The notes beneath the pieces are model-generated. The model had not been told where the DNA came from. It did not search any database and saw only the letters and a program-made list of their open reading frames with translations. A DNA stretch of 64,000 nucleotides from Devosia sp. FJ2-5-3 (GTDB lineage Bacteria > Pseudomonadota > Alphaproteobacteria > Rhizobiales > Devosiaceae). Positions 29,036 through 34,684 of the stretch are shown here, piece after piece (position 1 is the stretch's first letter; the number at the start of each line of letters is the position of its first letter). The position numbers and the translations under genes were made by a program. Location: contig NZ_CP104007.1 of the NCBI RefSeq assembly GCF_029201545.1, positions 1,274,501-1,338,500 of the forward strand, read 5' to 3'.

Positions 29036-29553
29036 TGGCGATCGCCGTATCGCTTCTCTTCGACCCCGAGGTCGACGGCGCGGTACGGCGTGTCTGGCAG
29101 GCGCTGGCAGACAGTGGCATCTGCAGCGCCATGGACAATCTTGGCTATGCCCCGCATGTGTCGCTGATCGTCTCGGACGATGATGATCTGGCCACTTCGC
29201 TCAGCGGCGCCATTGATGCAATGGCAGGCGAGCGAGGACTTGACCTGTCGCTTGGGCCTGCCCGGCAATTTCCCGATACGAGCATCGTCTGGCTTGCCTG
29301 CGACGGCGGGGCAGCGCTTTTCGACCTCCAGCAGCGGATCGCCGACGTCGTGCCGGTGGATCGTATCCGTCCCCATTATCGTCCTGGCCAGTGGACGCCC
29401 CATGTCACGGTCGAAATGGCGGGCGATGCCGCAGAGGGCCTGCGGCTCGCAAACCAGCTTTGGCCGGAGGTTCGGAAAGCACGTTCCGTGCGATTGGAGC
29501 TGGCCCAGTTCATGCCGGTCCGACCGCTCTCAGGCGTGGATCTTGCCGATTAA
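29035..29553 (+). CDS. 2'-5' RNA ligase (2H phosphoesterase) family protein
   Basis: 172 residues. The two His-x-Ser/Thr motifs of the 2H fold are present: HVSL in the first half and HVTV in the second. Enzymes of this type act on 2',3'- or 2',5'-phosphodiester bonds; the substrate here is unknown. The ATG overlaps the aminotransferase stop (TAATG), so translation is coupled. Confidence 0.85.
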
Positions 29554-30653
29554 CTTCCCAGAAGGCCGGCGAGGCCGCTGGATTTGGCTGTGGGGCCGCT
29601 GGCGCCGAGTTCGGTGAACATCTGCATGAGCTTGCTGGAGGTGTTGTAGTTGGCGATTGCGGCTTCGTAGAGCTTGTCGGACCAGCCGGCGGCCTGGCGC
29701 TCCTCGGGGCTGAGCGAGGAGAAGGCGGCGATGACGTTCTGGCTGAAGGCGCTGGGGTCGCCCGACTGGCCGGCGGATTTGAGGCCGGCCATCAGCGCCG
29801 CGCTGGACTTGGTCCGCAAGGTCGATTGAGCGGCCTTGATCTCGTCGGTGCTGAACTGGCCGCCCTCGTTGAGGACGATGGCCGAGAGCGAACGGCTCGA
29901 CAGATCCGAGAGGTCGATGAGCGCGCCGCGCGATGAATAGGGATTGAATGTGGGTGTCTTGCCCGCCGCCTGTGCGTCGGCATAGCGCTTGTCGAGCACG
30001 GCGCGGGCATTGGCGGCAAGGGTGACCATGCTCTGCTGGCCGGTGGCGTCCTTGGCCTCGACAAGGGCGATATAGAGGGCGACGGGATCATCTTCGCCGG
30101 CATCGGGGAACCGCTTTGGATCGGCCTGCAATTGCTTGAGGCCTTCGGTGAGGGCGTCCCGGCCGGCCTTCCAGTCGGCGCTGGCTTTTTCCTCGGGGCC
30201 GAGAGTGTCGAAATAGCTGGCGGCGGCCTTATAGAGGCCGGTGAAGTCGCCGGTCACATCGGCGATGGCGAGGGGGCCGGCCAAGGCGGCTTCCAGGCGG
30301 CGCTGCATTTCAAGGGTTGCGGCCTCGCTCTCATCCGCCTTCGAATTCTTGTCGCTGGCCAGGGCATAGAGCTCGCGTGCATCAAGGCTCGAGAGATCAA
30401 GCGCCAGTTCGTCGCCCTCGAGGGGTGAGGTGCGGCCCACTTCCTCGAGCAATTTGGCGAGCTTGGCCCGAGCATCGCTGACCACTGTCAGGAGATCGCG
30501 CTCGGCGAGGGCGGCGCGGGCCGCATCGGATAGAGTGACGGAAGTTGCTGCGGTGGTCGCCGCGCCTGTGGCCGCCGTGCCGGCCTTGCTGGCCGCGGAC
30601 GAATAGGACGTGCTCGTATAGCTGGAATAATAGGTGGAGGTGACGGCGACCAT
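29550..30653 (-). CDS. hypothetical protein, 367 aa, Ser/Thr/Tyr-rich start
   Basis: Family not recognised. The first 35 residues are low complexity (TSTYYSSYTSTSYSSAASKA); the rest is mainly Ala-rich helix with repeated acidic turns. There is no signal peptide or membrane helix. The flexible start followed by a helical rod recalls proteins secreted without a cleaved signal, but this is only an impression. ATG 30653 has AAGGAG seven bases upstream. Convergent with the 2H gene (stops overlap by 4 bp). Confidence 0.72.
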   Translation of the reverse strand: MVAVTSTYYSSYTSTSYSSAASKAGTAATGAATTAATSVTLSDAARAALAERDLLTVVSDARAKLAKLLEEVGRTSPLEGDELALDLSSLDARELYALASDKNSKADESEAATLEMQRRLEAALAGPLAIADVTGDFTGLYKAAASYFDTLGPEEKASADWKAGRDALTEGLKQLQADPKRFPDAGEDDPVALYIALVEAKDATGQQSMVTLAANARAVLDKRYADAQAAGKTPTFNPYSSRGALIDLSDLSSRSLSAIVLNEGGQFSTDEIKAAQSTLRTKSSAALMAGLKSAGQSGDPSAFSQNVIAAFSSLSPEERQAAGWSDKLYEAAIANYNTSSKLMQMFTELGASGPTAKSSGLAGLLGS

Positions 30654-30782
30654 GGCAAAGCTCCTTGCTGAAAATGGTTAAGCAAGTGTTGTGCCGAAAA
30701 ATTATCTTTTGATTTCAATGGCGAGGGAGGTCGGGGACGGAGGCGTCGGCAAAGTTTGCCGGGCTGATTCTGCCGAAACCCT

Positions 30783-30880
30783 GAAATAAAGAAGCCCCGC
30801 CCGAGGGGATGGGCGGGGCTAGAGGTCTTTAGCAAGAGCTTCCGACCTTGGAGGAAGCGGGTCACCACGATCCCGCTTTC
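30783..30880 (-). ncRNA. small RNA unit 4, degenerate anti-SD type
   Basis: Inferred transcript. TTGTGC (complement of 30910-30915) is 17 bp from CATATT (complement of 30887-30892), the same spacing as in units 1-3. A first hairpin (AGCGGG 30856-30861 with CCCGCT 30872-30877) is followed by CTTCCTCC, a weakened form of the anti-Shine-Dalgarno motif. A 10-bp stem (30793-30802 with 30811-30820) then TTCTTTATTT form the terminator. It lacks the upstream box of the other units. Confidence 0.55.
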
Positions 30881-31017
30881 GCGCGAAATATGCGACGTTC
30901 TGAAGCGGCGCACAAACGCGCAATGGGAAGTGCTGCCATGCAGATTCGCGCCGCTCGCTGTTTCGTTGCGCAGGCGAAATGCTCGATTTGTTTTTCCGGA
31001 CCGCGGGTGGTGCAGGC

Positions 31018-31212
31018 AAAAAAAGAGGCTCCAACCGAAGTTGGAGCCTTATGATAGGGCCGAAGCCAAATCGAGAGTTTTGGCCCCGCGCAAGGGAGGA
31101 GGATATGCGCAGAACCGGTGGGCCCCAGCCGAGGGAGGAGGATACGGCTGAAACCCGGTGCCGAGCGTCGCGGGTCCTAGGGAGGAGGAGAAGGAGCGGC
31201 GTCGCGTCGACA
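31018..31212 (-). ncRNA. small RNA unit 3, three anti-SD hairpin loops
   Basis: Inferred transcript of about 195 nt. Three copies of CCTCCTCCC (complements of 31180-31188, 31133-31141, 31094-31102) each lie in a loop: stems TCCT/AGGA, CAGCCG/CGGCTG (31126-31131 with 31145-31150) and GCGCA/TGCGC (31088-31092 with 31106-31110). Two of the loops are identical (TATCCTCCTCCCT). The terminator has a 10-bp stem (31026-31035 with 31040-31049), a TTCG loop and 7 T. It resembles alphaproteobacterial CcsR/cuckoo and alpha-r14 RNAs, which are proposed to pair with ribosome sites of many mRNAs. Confidence 0.8.
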
Positions 31213-31218
31213 AGGAGC

Positions 31219-31273
31219 AATATAGATTTTGACCGTCTGGTCAGCAATGCAGAAGTGAGCATGTCAGCTATGC
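31219..31273 (-). promoter_or_regulatory. promoter and upstream box of small RNA unit 3
   Basis: TTGCTG (complement 31242-31247), 17-bp spacer, TATATT (complement 31219-31224). The box GCATAGCTGACATG (complement 31260-31273) is 12 bp upstream of the -35 element. A palindrome TGACCGTCTGGTCA lies in the spacer and overlaps the -35 element. Confidence 0.65.
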
Positions 31274-31370
31274 ATTAGGCACAGCGTCAATCTGTCCATT
31301 TCTTAGGCAGATTGTCGCACCCCTCTCCTGGCGGTGAAAAAGCGGCGCGAGGGAGGTGGGGGCGGGGAGA

Positions 31371-31585
31371 GAAAAAAAGGGCTCCAACCGAAGTTGGAGC
31401 CCGATGATCGGCAGGCCAGATCAAAGATGATCGGCAGATCCAGATCGAAAGTGGGGCAGAAGGGCAAGGGAGGAGGAGTATGCCATTCTGCCAAGAGCCT
31501 TGGATCAGGGAGGAGGAGAGATCCGCAACTCAGTGTCGCGATACAGAGTTCCGAGGGAGGAGGTTCGGAAGAACGTCTCAGCGAC
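31371..31585 (-). ncRNA. small RNA unit 2, three anti-SD hairpin loops
   Basis: Inferred transcript of about 215 nt. Three CCTCCTCCC copies (complements of 31555-31563, 31508-31516, 31468-31476) are in loops closed by TTCCGA/TCGGAA, GGATC/GATCC and a longer stem (GGCAGAA with TTCTGCC, plus an inner TGCC/GGCA). The terminator at 31379-31402 has a 10-bp stem, a loop containing TTCG and 7 T. Its stem sequence is almost that of unit 3, so the two are recent duplicates at that end. Confidence 0.8.
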
Positions 31586-31591
31586 ACGCCC

Positions 31592-31646
31592 TATATGTAC
31601 TCTACCAGTTCAGTAGGCAATAGGCGCCGTCACATGTCAGCTATGC
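31592..31646 (-). promoter_or_regulatory. promoter and upstream box of small RNA unit 2
   Basis: TTGCCT (complement 31615-31620), 17-bp spacer, CATATA (complement 31592-31597). The box GCATAGCTGACATG (complement 31633-31646) is 12 bp upstream of the -35 element and identical to that of unit 3. Confidence 0.65.
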
Positions 31647-31666
31647 AAATTCGCATGGCACAAGAC

Positions 31667-31783
31667 AAAAAAATGGCTCCGCCCGAGGGGAGAGCGGAGC
31701 CACCAGGGTCGCGAGCCAAAAGCCCGCTAGGAGGGAACGCAGCGCGTTGCAAGGGAGGAGGGAGAAAACAAGCGCGCTGTGAT
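31667..31783 (-). ncRNA. small RNA unit 1, one anti-SD hairpin loop
   Basis: Inferred transcript of about 117 nt. One CCTCCTCCC (complement 31753-31761) lies in the loop of an AGCGCG/CGCGCT stem (31741-31746 with 31773-31778). A shorter CCCTCC follows at 31730-31735. The terminator is a 9-bp stem (31674-31682 with 31694-31702) plus 7 T. With a single loop plus terminator it has the basic layout described for CcsR/cuckoo RNAs. Confidence 0.75.
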
Positions 31784-31789
31784 GTGCTG

Positions 31790-31844
31790 CATATATGGGC
31801 GGGATGCCTATTCGCCAACCAGTCCACTGACATGTCAGATATGC
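31790..31844 (-). promoter_or_regulatory. promoter and upstream box of small RNA unit 1
   Basis: TTGGCG (complement 31813-31818), 17-bp spacer, TATATG (complement 31790-31795). The box GCATATCTGACATG (complement 31831-31844) differs by one base from units 2 and 3 and has the same 12-bp distance to the -35 element. Confidence 0.65.
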
Positions 31845-32012
31845 GCCTCTCGCATGGCGGACGAAATAGGCAAGCAAAATCAAGGATTAGATGGCCTAGA
31901 ACTGCGAAGTTTGCCGCGCATATTTCTTGTGCGCGCCCGATCTCAACATTGCCAAAGTCTTAATCAGCGATTGCCCGAGCTAGGTCGCTCACGAGAGGCG
32001 GGACGAAGCAGA

Positions 32013-32720
32013 TCAGGGCGCGTGGGTGAAAGCGGCCAGGGTCGCTTCGAGAAGCCCCAGATGCTCGATCCGGGCATAGCGCGGGGATGCCGGCGGTTCC
32101 TCGGCGTGCTCATAGGACCAAGTGAGGTCGTGTGGCACATAGACGCCGAAGGCACCGGCTTCGAGGGCCGGAAGGATATCGGAGCGCAGGGAATTGCCGA
32201 CCATGACGGTGTGCTCAGCACCTTCGGTATGGCGGGCGAAGAGGCGCTCATAGGTGGCTGCGGTCTTGTCTGCGACGATTTCGATGGCGGCAAAATAGTC
32301 GGCAAGCCCGGAGGCGGCGAGCTTGCGCTCCTGGTCGAAGATATCGCCCTTGGTGATCAGGATCAGCCGATAGTCGCGTTCGAGGCCGGCCAGCGCCTGA
32401 TCGACATAGGGCAGGGTTTCGATCGGGTAGGTCAGCAATTCGCGGCCGGCGGCGAGGATTTCGGCAATGACCGTGCCGGGGACGCGATGTTCGGTGACCT
32501 CAAGGGCCGTTTCGACCATGGAGAGGGCAAAGCCCTTCATGCCGAAACCGTAAAAGCGCAGATTGCGCTTGGTGGATTCGATGAGGCGCTCAACCAGGTC
32601 CGGCGCGTCGGTATAGGGCGCCAGAAGGGCGGCGAAGCGCTGTTCTGTCAGGCGGAAATAGCGCTCGTTTTGCCACAACGTATCATCGGCATCGAAGGCG
32701 ATGGTGGTTATGCGGGGCAA
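32013..32720 (-). CDS. HAD family hydrolase
   Basis: 235 residues. Motif I FDADDTLWQ has the nucleophile Asp. LILITKGD is motif II, and VGNSLRSDILPALEAGAFGV is motif IV with the metal-binding Asp. The cap lies between motifs I and II, as in C1-type phosphatases. Substrate unknown. It follows the LysR-type gene after 1 bp on the same strand and lies between it and the small-RNA array. Confidence 0.9.
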   Translation of the reverse strand: MPRITTIAFDADDTLWQNERYFRLTEQRFAALLAPYTDAPDLVERLIESTKRNLRFYGFGMKGFALSMVETALEVTEHRVPGTVIAEILAAGRELLTYPIETLPYVDQALAGLERDYRLILITKGDIFDQERKLAASGLADYFAAIEIVADKTAATYERLFARHTEGAEHTVMVGNSLRSDILPALEAGAFGVYVPHDLTWSYEHAEEPPASPRYARIEHLGLLEATLAAFTHAP

Positions 32721-32721
32721 A

Positions 32722-33621
32722 TCAGAACGACCATTCCCGTGCCTTGGAAACGAGGAAGTCGCGGAAGACGCCGACGCGCTTGGAATTCTTCAAGGCCGGT
32801 GGATAGACGAAATAGGCCTCGTAGGCGGGCAGCTCGATCTCGGGCAGGACCTGGACGAGACCGTCTTCCTTTTCGGTCACATAGGCAGGCAGCATGGCGA
32901 CACCGATGCCGGCGCGGCAGGCCTGCATCATGCCATAGATGGCGTTGACCTTGAGCACGGCGCGGCGCGGGCTGGAATCGGGACGGCCGAGGCGCTCGAG
33001 ATAGTTGATGTCGCCGAGATAGGACGGGACCGGCTCGCCGAAGCTGATGATGCGGTGCTCGTCCAGGTCGTCAACGGCCTTGGGCATGCCGTGATCTTCG
33101 ATATAGGAGGAGCTGGCATAGAAATGGTTGTGCACGGTGAACAGCTTGCGCTGGATCATCTCGGACTGGTTGGGCCGGTGCAGCCGAATGGCCACGTCGG
33201 CCTCGCGCATGGCGAGGTCGAGTTCGGCGTCATTGAGGCGGATTTCGAGCTGGATCAGCGGATAGAGCTGCAAGAACTCATCGAGTCGCGACGATAGCCA
33301 GGTCGAGCCGATGCCGACCGTGGTGGTGACGATGAGCGGGCCAGTGGGTTCGTCCTGGCTCTCGGACATCTGCGTCTCGACCTGCTGCAATTCCCAGTGC
33401 ATGCGATGGGCGGTGCGGAACAATTGTTCGCCCACCTCGGTGAGCACCAGGCCGCGTGCATGGCGGATGAAAAGCTTGAGGCCCAGATCGTCCTCGAGCG
33501 CCGAGATCTGCCGGCTGACGGCAGACTGGCTCATGCCCAGCTTTTCGGCAGCGTGGGTGAAAGAGCCCGACTCAGCGGCGGTGTGGAAAATCCGGAGCTT
33601 GTCCCAGTCGAGCATTTTCAT
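32722..33621 (-). CDS. lsrB: LysR-type regulator, LsrB/VtlR-like
   Basis: 299 residues. The winged helix (WDKLRIFHTAAESGSFTHAA, then LGMSQSAVSRQISALEDDLG) is followed by a LysR substrate domain. The start WDKLRIFH, the KLFTVHNHFYAS segment and the C-terminal FRDFLVSKAREWSF fit my recollection of the LsrB/VtlR group of Hyphomicrobiales. LsrB of Sinorhizobium lies beside trxB, as this gene does. In that group the regulator controls small RNAs and redox or cell-surface genes. The name is inferred from similarity and gene order, not from a search. Confidence 0.8.
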   Translation of the reverse strand: MKMLDWDKLRIFHTAAESGSFTHAAEKLGMSQSAVSRQISALEDDLGLKLFIRHARGLVLTEVGEQLFRTAHRMHWELQQVETQMSESQDEPTGPLIVTTTVGIGSTWLSSRLDEFLQLYPLIQLEIRLNDAELDLAMREADVAIRLHRPNQSEMIQRKLFTVHNHFYASSSYIEDHGMPKAVDDLDEHRIISFGEPVPSYLGDINYLERLGRPDSSPRRAVLKVNAIYGMMQACRAGIGVAMLPAYVTEKEDGLVQVLPEIELPAYEAYFVYPPALKNSKRVGVFRDFLVSKAREWSF

Positions 33622-33733: not shown

Positions 33734-34684
33734 CTATTCCGCAGCTTCGGCAAGTTCATGTTCGGCAAGGAAGCGCTCGGCGTCGAGCGCAGCCATGCAG
33801 CCCATGCCTGCGGCAGTGACGGCCTGTCGATAGACGTCGTCAGTGACGTCGCCGGCCGCAAAGACGCCGGGGATATTGGTTTCGGTGGTGCCGGGCTTCA
33901 CCTGCAGATACCCGCCCGGCTTCATGTCGAGCTTGCCGGCAAAGATCGACGTTGCCGGTGCGTGGCCGATGGCCACGAAGATGCCGTCGATCGGCTGGTC
34001 ATAATTCTCGCCGGTGACCCGGTTGTGCAGGCGGACCGTATTGACCGAGGGCGGCATCGGCGCGCCGCCGACTTCGACAACTTCGGTGTTCCAGCGCACT
34101 TCGATTTTCGGGTTCTTGAACAGGCGATCCTGCAGGATGCGCTCGGCGCGGAATTCGTCGCGGCGATGCACGACGATGACCTTTTCGGCGAAATTGGTGA
34201 GGAAGAGCGCTTCCTCGACGGCCGTGTTGCCGCCGCCGACCACGAGGACCTGCTTGCCGCGATAGAAAAAGCCATCGCAGGTCGCACAGGCGGAAACGCC
34301 AAAGCCCTGGAATTTCTGCTCGGAGGGTAGGCCCAGCCATTTGGCCTGGGCGCCCGTGGCGATGATGATGCTGTCTGCCGTGTAACTTGTGCCGCTATCG
34401 GAGGTGAGCACGAAGGGACGACGATCGAAATCGACATGGGTGATGATGTCGTTGACGATCTTTGTGCCGACATGCTCGGCCTGCGCCTTCATCTGCTCCA
34501 TCAGCCAGGGGCCCTGGATGACGTCGGCAAAGCCGGGATAGTTCTCGACATCGGTGGTGATGGTGAGCTGGCCGCCGGGCTGGAGGCCCTGGATCATCAC
34601 GGGTTCGAGCATGGCGCGCGCCGCATAGATGGCCGCCGTATATCCAGCAGGACCGGAACCGATGATGATGACTTTCGCGTGCAT
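33734..34684 (-). CDS. trxB: thioredoxin-disulfide reductase
   Basis: 316 residues. It transfers electrons from NADPH to thioredoxin. GSGPAGYTAAIYAARA binds FAD, CATCDGFF has the redox-active disulfide, GGGNTAVEEALFL binds NADPH, and GVFAAGDVTDDVYRQAVTAAG is the second FAD motif. Length is normal. The neighbouring LsrB-like regulator fits a redox context. Confidence 0.96.
   Translation of the reverse strand: MHAKVIIIGSGPAGYTAAIYAARAMLEPVMIQGLQPGGQLTITTDVENYPGFADVIQGPWLMEQMKAQAEHVGTKIVNDIITHVDFDRRPFVLTSDSGTSYTADSIIIATGAQAKWLGLPSEQKFQGFGVSACATCDGFFYRGKQVLVVGGGNTAVEEALFLTNFAEKVIVVHRRDEFRAERILQDRLFKNPKIEVRWNTEVVEVGGAPMPPSVNTVRLHNRVTGENYDQPIDGIFVAIGHAPATSIFAGKLDMKPGGYLQVKPGTTETNIPGVFAAGDVTDDVYRQAVTAAGMGCMAALDAERFLAEHELAEAAE

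Follow-up and report, generated by a model that had tools for sequence, protein, structure and literature searches.

The small RNAs AbcR1 and AbcR2 (alpha-r15, RF02345) of the Rhizobiaceae are reported to be encoded behind trxB–lsrB in Agrobacterium and Sinorhizobium, and the published arrangement has trxB directly upstream of lsrB. The box of the LysR-type regulator VtlR, GCAT-N3-TG-N3-T, is described at -61 to -49 of abcR1 (PMC7486931, PMC8844928), and the M2 motif of AbcR is given as GUUCCC (PMC5461406). For NfeR1 (alpha-r14, RF02344) the published box is TGCA-N6-GCAT at -72 to -60 (PMC10746234); comparison with the cuckoo RNAs is based here on PMC3927594. In the published accounts, NfeR1 and the AbcR RNAs each have a defined set of target mRNAs, most of them for ABC transport, and the two kinds are treated as separate families that have LsrB and transport targets in common. 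Two further systems are relevant. CcsR1–4 (RF02791) and CIN1 form clusters of RNAs with CCUCCUCCC loops; according to the published description, an RpoH promoter drives a single transcript that also encodes a DUF1127 protein, and the CcsR RNAs are processed from it. VrsA of Agrobacterium tumefaciens, which we liken by description, is reported as a single small RNA, far from vtlR, that is directly activated by VtlR via the same box.

The window, meaning the whole 64,000-nucleotide stretch of Devosia sp. FJ2-5-3 analysed here, carries an array at 31854-30786 on the minus strand that probably represents the Devosiaceae form of the trxB–lsrB(vtlR)–abcR locus, in which LsrB would activate the array and the RNA loops would block translation of many uptake genes. 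Its building blocks are known; what is unusual is the presence of both RNA kinds together and their fixed linkage to lsrB. In the literature as far as it was searched, the combination of AbcR-like and alpha-r14/cuckoo-type RNAs in one array was not found, and the best matches of a literature search included no paper on Devosia with AbcR, NfeR1, CcsR or anti-Shine–Dalgarno. A preliminary description, made from the letters alone, had recognized four minus-strand units, each with a TTGNNN-17-NATATN promoter and a terminator, between a HAD gene and a protein gene of no known family. This was borne out, as detailed below: the flanking genes encode a HAD-type hydrolase (32013..32720, minus strand, Pfam PF00702) and a 367-aa protein (29550-30653) that matches nothing in Pfam or NCBIfam. 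In 38 of 79 related loci, a homolog of the latter is encoded downstream of the LysR gene. The description was nevertheless incomplete, having missed the trxB–lsrB neighbourhood and the LsrB-type box before each unit.

A pattern search places the promoters of units 1–4 at 31790..31818 (TTGGCG-17-TATATG), 31592..31620 (TTGCCT-17-CATATA), 31219..31247 (TTGCTG-17-TATATT) and 30887..30915 (TTGTGC-17-CATATT), all of alphaproteobacterial type; a scan for the E. coli-type promoter consensus gave no sites. The four strong terminators lie at 31704-31672, 31402-31379, 31049-31026 and 30820-30793, and the scan returned five terminator-like sites compared with 1.5 in shuffled sequence. From folds and alignments, the predicted RNAs extend over 31667..31783 (unit 1, AbcR-like; family alignment A5), 31373..31585 and 31020..31212 (units 2 and 3, of a three-loop alpha-r14/cuckoo type) and 30786..30880 (unit 4, short; alignment A3), all on the minus strand. 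The 9-mer CCTCCTCCC occurs once in unit 1 (31753..31761), three times in unit 2 (31555..31563, 31508..31516 and 31468..31476), three times in unit 3 (31180..31188, 31133..31141 and 31094..31102) and not at all in unit 4. As had been proposed, all seven copies are perfect and sit in hairpin loops, with an unpaired probability of 1.0 in the predicted folds. Open frames exist on both strands; a protein-coding reading was nonetheless rejected, because the loops are conserved and the stems covary.

The seven exact copies, all on the minus strand between 31094 and 31761, are the only ones in the window. Shuffled windows contain 1.24 on average and none of 100 shuffles reached seven, while 0.045 would be expected from an order-1 Markov model with the composition of the array itself. 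Taken singly, the 9-mer is not enriched in the genome as a whole: it occurs 56 times and its reversed pattern 59 times. Pairs of 9-mers within 20-50 nt of each other are found four times genome-wide, each time in the array, and never in the reversed control.

No Rfam model matches the array at its gathering threshold. Below it, RF02344 (ar14) matches unit 3 with 37.9 bits and unit 2 with 35.5 bits (cut-off 58.8), and RF02791 (CcsR1) reaches 30.1 bits (cut-off 65.3); it is units 2 and 3 that these two models match. Weak suhB/mmgR matches of 15-21 bits, against a cut-off of 41, were rejected, as were those of sX13, 6C and anti-hemB, all below cut-off. Units 2 and 3 each consist of adjacent hairpins, three as in alpha-r14, with CCUCCUCCC open in every loop, and both are preceded by an LsrB-type box as in NfeR1; the variable stems with compensating changes that mark alpha-r14/cuckoo RNAs are found in unit 3. 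We therefore regard the two units, from their sequence and predicted structure, as alpha-r14/cuckoo-type, and do not count them as Rfam members because they fall short of the RF02344 gathering score. They differ from NfeR1 in standing next to each other at the lsrB locus, where each has a promoter and a terminator to itself, and in showing no sign of an ntrB target: ntrB, a target of NfeR1 in Sinorhizobium meliloti, has no GGGAGGA before the starts looked at in this genome. In contrast to CcsR, the array has no DUF1127 gene directly upstream, the genome's three DUF1127 genes all being far off. The kinship with cuckoo, alpha-r14 and CcsR RNAs suggested in the preliminary description is thus retained for units 2 and 3; unit 1 follows the plan of AbcR instead, and unit 4 resembles unit 1.

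Of 150 genomes sampled from the order, 27 contain doubled CCTCCTCCC motifs, five of them Devosiaceae and 22 others, although two (G072 and G124) look like chance repeats and the reversed pattern occurs once each in five genomes. The motifs lie near lsrB in all five sampled Devosiaceae and within 6 kb of it in none of the 22 others. Among 13 loci looked at before such RNAs, eight contained DUF1127-like frames, and all eight proved to be DUF1127, which is the CIN1 arrangement. These anti-Shine–Dalgarno RNAs directly 3′ of DUF1127 genes (L170, L171, L173, L184, L187, L188, L193 and L194) come from four other families. In one further genome, G159, three clusters of two motifs each follow one another at intervals of about 180 bases. 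The tandem arrangement, which had been thought unusual, is accordingly not so in itself, tandem RNAs being known from AbcR1/2, CcsR1–4 and the G159 clusters; what sets this array apart is that it mixes the two kinds and is constantly linked to lsrB.

What the loops might bind can be approached through ribosome-binding sites. In the genome, GGGAGGA stands 4-12 nt before an ATG 101 times, compared with 12 times for the reversed motif. Of these sites 100 were listed; two antisense to the array and three duplicates were dropped, and then 24 of the remaining 95 with frames below 80 aa, leaving 71 usable genes. Solute-binding proteins account for 33 of the 71, and two permeases and two ATPases are found in addition. 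The 33 comprise 29 genes in four homology clusters (12, 9, 5 and 3), which agree with the Pfam tallies for SBP_bac_1, Peripla_BP_4, SBP_bac_5 and DctP (members were not scanned singly), and four solute-binding singletons. Only about two of 92 random ORFs encode solute-binding proteins; this background was picked, with mostly longer frames, from 150 listed of 184 ORFs in eight of ten 20-kb stretches. Its Pfam tally covers the top 25 of 98 families and possibly hides single solute-binding families, for which reason Fisher's test was run with 5/92 (p 3e-8). A second motif, AAAGGAG, gave 3/35 solute-binding genes after like filters had removed 18 of 53 sites; it is a poor control, since chance accounts for the majority of its sites (53 versus 32 reversed), and with about 14 real genes the difference would not be significant. 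SBP_bac_1 genes were therefore taken by family instead, using the 30 of 40 with loci: GGGAGG precedes the start in 13 of the 30, as against 6 of 92 ORFs (p 1e-5).

Since the loops are complementary to Shine–Dalgarno sequences as such, the RNAs could instead be general competitors of the ribosome, in which many 16S-like anti-Shine–Dalgarno copies occupy any strong site and bring about a broad slowing of translation under stress, with no preferred targets. Solute-binding genes do have stronger sites than other ORFs (median 16S pairing -10.5 versus -8.05), and the preference in energy for the loop over 16S rRNA, significant in the unmatched sets (p 0.006), is not significant once the sets are matched for 16S rRNA pairing (p 0.12). 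GGGAGG nevertheless remains in 12 of 22 matched SBP_bac_1 genes versus 3 of 31 ORFs (p 6e-4), and the published NfeR1 and AbcR RNAs have their defined mRNAs, so that we consider general competition unlikely. These values depend on start sites chosen by rule, a second rule having been applied after the first had clearly missed starts; under the earlier rule GGGAGG was found in 9 of 30 (matched p 0.026) and the energy preference gave p 0.06 unmatched and 0.25 matched. With Shine–Dalgarno strength matched, the solute-binding excess persists by motif, whereas by pairing energy it is only weak. The duplex energies of the GGGAGGA genes themselves were not counted, because they follow from the way in which the genes were selected.

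The array was matched at the DNA level in all 24 genomes of the same genus and in none of 16 genomes of other families. A total of 79 named loci, found via the LysR gene, represent Devosia, Pelagibacterium, Maritalea, Arsenicitalea and some unplaced MAGs. At least one CCTCCTCCC occurs on the same strand within 6 kb in 74 of these 79 LsrB loci, so that the conservation of the loops in related genomes, which had been set as a test, is upheld; of the five loci without it, three have fewer than 600 bases of contig left and two have about 2.4-2.5 kb. Among the 74, two three-loop units are present in 46, three in one, one in 20 and none in seven. The invariance of the loops is in part by construction, because the units were gathered by exact CCTCCTCCC. 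In the stems of unit 3, 94.5% of cells are paired and 19 of 25 pairs show changes on both sides, compared with 5-12 in slid controls, although the structure was derived from the same alignment, which favours a positive result. Unit 2 was aligned only (alignment A2), covariation being shown for unit 3. Unit 4 is conserved, with covariation in hairpin 2 and the terminator (8 of 17 pairs).

There is some precedent for an array that is active only in part, the remainder being near-silent copies: of six NfeR1 loci reported in S. meliloti, one was reliably detected (PMC7143759), and unit 4 here lacks the 9-mer loop and has a box that deviates at one position. Throughout the family, however, promoter, operator and the order of the units are kept. 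The AbcR-like unit, typed in 55 of the 79 loci, stands first in all 55, and the order AbcR-like, three-loop, three-loop, unit 4 is complete in 27, with the typing overlooking loci whose -35 has no TTG. Partial silence on this scale seems improbable, and an array whose units are all expressed is the reading that we prefer. Loop number varies. In L061 (11953-12971), whose LysR protein is 98% identical, a third three-loop unit brings the total to ten loops; because its units 2 and 3 have their first 30 bases in common, the sequence suggests a recent duplication. G016 has ten loops as well.

The relationship of unit 1 to AbcR is one of place and build. It lies behind trxB–lsrB/vtlR, as the AbcR RNAs do, with the box at the same position in a tandem of RNAs, and its predicted targets, like theirs, are uptake genes. 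It carries CUCCCUCCUCCC in the C-rich loop of hairpin 1, followed by a single-stranded GUUCCC between hairpins 1 and 2 (31733..31738, minus strand) that equals the M2 motif of AbcR. At the M1 motif, CUCCCA in the loop of hairpin 1, unit 1 has CUCCCU instead, and S. meliloti AbcR2 departs from M1 in the same letter. There are two RNAs in the AbcR locus, whereas here there are four units, two of which have three identical loops. RF02345 had no match in the Devosia genome and none in 14 control genomes either, and the search was therefore repeated over the order. None of the five Devosiaceae gave a match; 18 of the 150 genomes did, five of them over the cut-off, and in 14 of the 18 (compared by eye) the LysR gene is followed on its own strand, at a distance of about 100-800 nt, by a match. 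GCAT-N22-TTG is found behind the LysR gene in 13 of 25 non-Devosiaceae loci examined.

In 19 aligned AbcR-like RNAs or RF02345 matches of other families, CCUCCC and GUUCCCCUC are present throughout, the latter mostly between hairpins 1 and 2 but in some cases inside a hairpin. A model of these 19 RNAs (R1) kept only four base pairs and a model of 28 units 1 (R2) only seven, so that both are mostly sequence profiles. In 289 kb of Devosiaceae DNA the two best matches of R1 are unit 1 of L117 (E 4.7e-4) and of L126 (1.3e-3); unit 1 of the present genome is not found, and the third best match is L098:14154-14312. R2 matches RNAs of L252 (3e-4) and L250 (6e-4). Unit 4 of the window is matched as well (3e-8; 28.2 bits), although the R2 pairs sit in the terminator and part of the unit 4 match may be carried by them. 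A further R2 match, of 14.2 bits (E 0.0018), lies where unit 3 ends. We term unit 1 AbcR-like on these sequence features and do not class it as a family member, because RF02345 does not recognize it. Unit 4 resembles unit 1, with a single-stranded CCTCC 5′ of hairpin 2. At 30780-30880, CGTGGTG and CTCCAAGGTC are kept in most aligned relatives and have no known counterpart.

The gene next upstream of the HAD gene encodes a LysR-type regulator, the presumed activator of the array (32722..33621, minus strand), which matches PDB 9HH1, A. tumefaciens LsrB (PMC11975290), over its full length with 375.8 bits. Directly upstream of it is trxB, for thioredoxin reductase (33734..34684, minus strand; TIGR01292 411.9 bits, over cut-off), a neighbourhood found in 77 of the 79 loci, whereas the HAD gene is not constant, directly following the LysR gene and thus intervening before the array in 33. 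Full-length similarity and the adjoining trxB identify 32722-33621 as an LsrB/VtlR ortholog by sequence; identity to Agrobacterium LsrB/VtlR is 51-58% over 77 loci, and among the 150 genomes of the order, 139 gave a match to this LysR at E 1e-60. Peroxide sensing by A. tumefaciens LsrB is reported to involve C144/C273 and C236/C244; C144/C273 is the reported sensor of that protein and does not define the family. In 77 of the 79 loci (L133, partial, and L134, with a short frame, were dropped), C144 is absent from every protein (V or I in 77/77) and C273 is present in one (V in the other 76), while C244 is M in all 77 and C236 is kept in 50. The LsrB of the window has a single cysteine. With both cysteines missing, the reported C144–C273 redox switch, as judged from the aligned proteins, cannot work in the LsrB of Devosiaceae.

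A full VtlR box stands before units 1–3 only, at -61 to -49 from the predicted starts: the operators, found by pattern search on the minus strand, lie at 31831..31854 (unit 1, TGCG-N6-GCAT-N3-TG-N3-T-G), 31633..31656 (unit 2) and 31260..31283 (unit 3). The operator-like site of unit 4 (30928..30951, minus strand), GCAT-N3-AG-N3-T, has one mismatch to the box. In all four units GCAT begins 61 bases before the predicted start, which is the published place. A search of both strands of the window for GCAT-N22-TTG-N20-NATA gives exactly four occurrences, one before each unit, with 0.033 expected by chance per strand. Across the family, the operator is present in 179 of 191 units at a fixed distance from the -35. 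In the consensus of 179 units, from which 12 of the 191 were excluded as having no TTG-type promoter, GCAT is kept at 97-99% and the final T at 98%; TG is more variable (T 77%, G 81%), as is the upstream TGC (58-80%). Allowing up to one mismatch, GCATRGCTGRCATG has 15 occurrences within the genome, three of them in the array, and TTG is at the right distance in none of the 12 others. The T-N11-A frame that LysR sites have in general is present in the box, which could be used by another LysR-type regulator, the linkage to lsrB being an inherited position only, but its sequence and position equal those where LsrB/VtlR acts in other Rhizobiales, which makes such a regulator very unlikely. Outside the Devosiaceae, a VtlR box lies upstream of the RNAs in 4 of 23 loci (L179–L182), all of one family (f43) and far from lsrB, and because of these boxes the LsrB regulon may include anti-Shine–Dalgarno RNAs in a wider range of bacteria.

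In the mechanism that we favour, LsrB would bind the box 49-61 nt before each start and activate four separately terminated small RNAs, namely the AbcR-like unit 1, the alpha-r14/cuckoo-type units 2 and 3 with three identical anti-Shine–Dalgarno loops each, and unit 4, which is related to unit 1 but shorter. The loops would pair with extended Shine–Dalgarno sites (GGGAGGA and longer), chiefly those of periplasmic solute-binding proteins, and block ribosome entry, so that uptake of many substrates would be lowered together. The array is thus probably one switch for many uptake systems. This predicts a concrete set of targets, the 33 solute-binding protein genes, and an LsrB that in Devosiaceae does not sense redox via the reported C144–C273 pair. 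More tentatively, AbcR and alpha-r14/cuckoo RNAs might be branches of one LsrB-driven family, of which the Devosiaceae keep the joint locus; their LsrB, stripped of its reported redox cysteines, would then read another signal and dose seven to ten identical loops that may tune solute uptake as a unit. If this is true, the number of loops per locus would be an evolving parameter. Across the family the two kinds of RNA are neighbours at the lsrB locus, with an LsrB-type box for each unit, and they offer a natural test both of their kinship and of the multiplication of loops.
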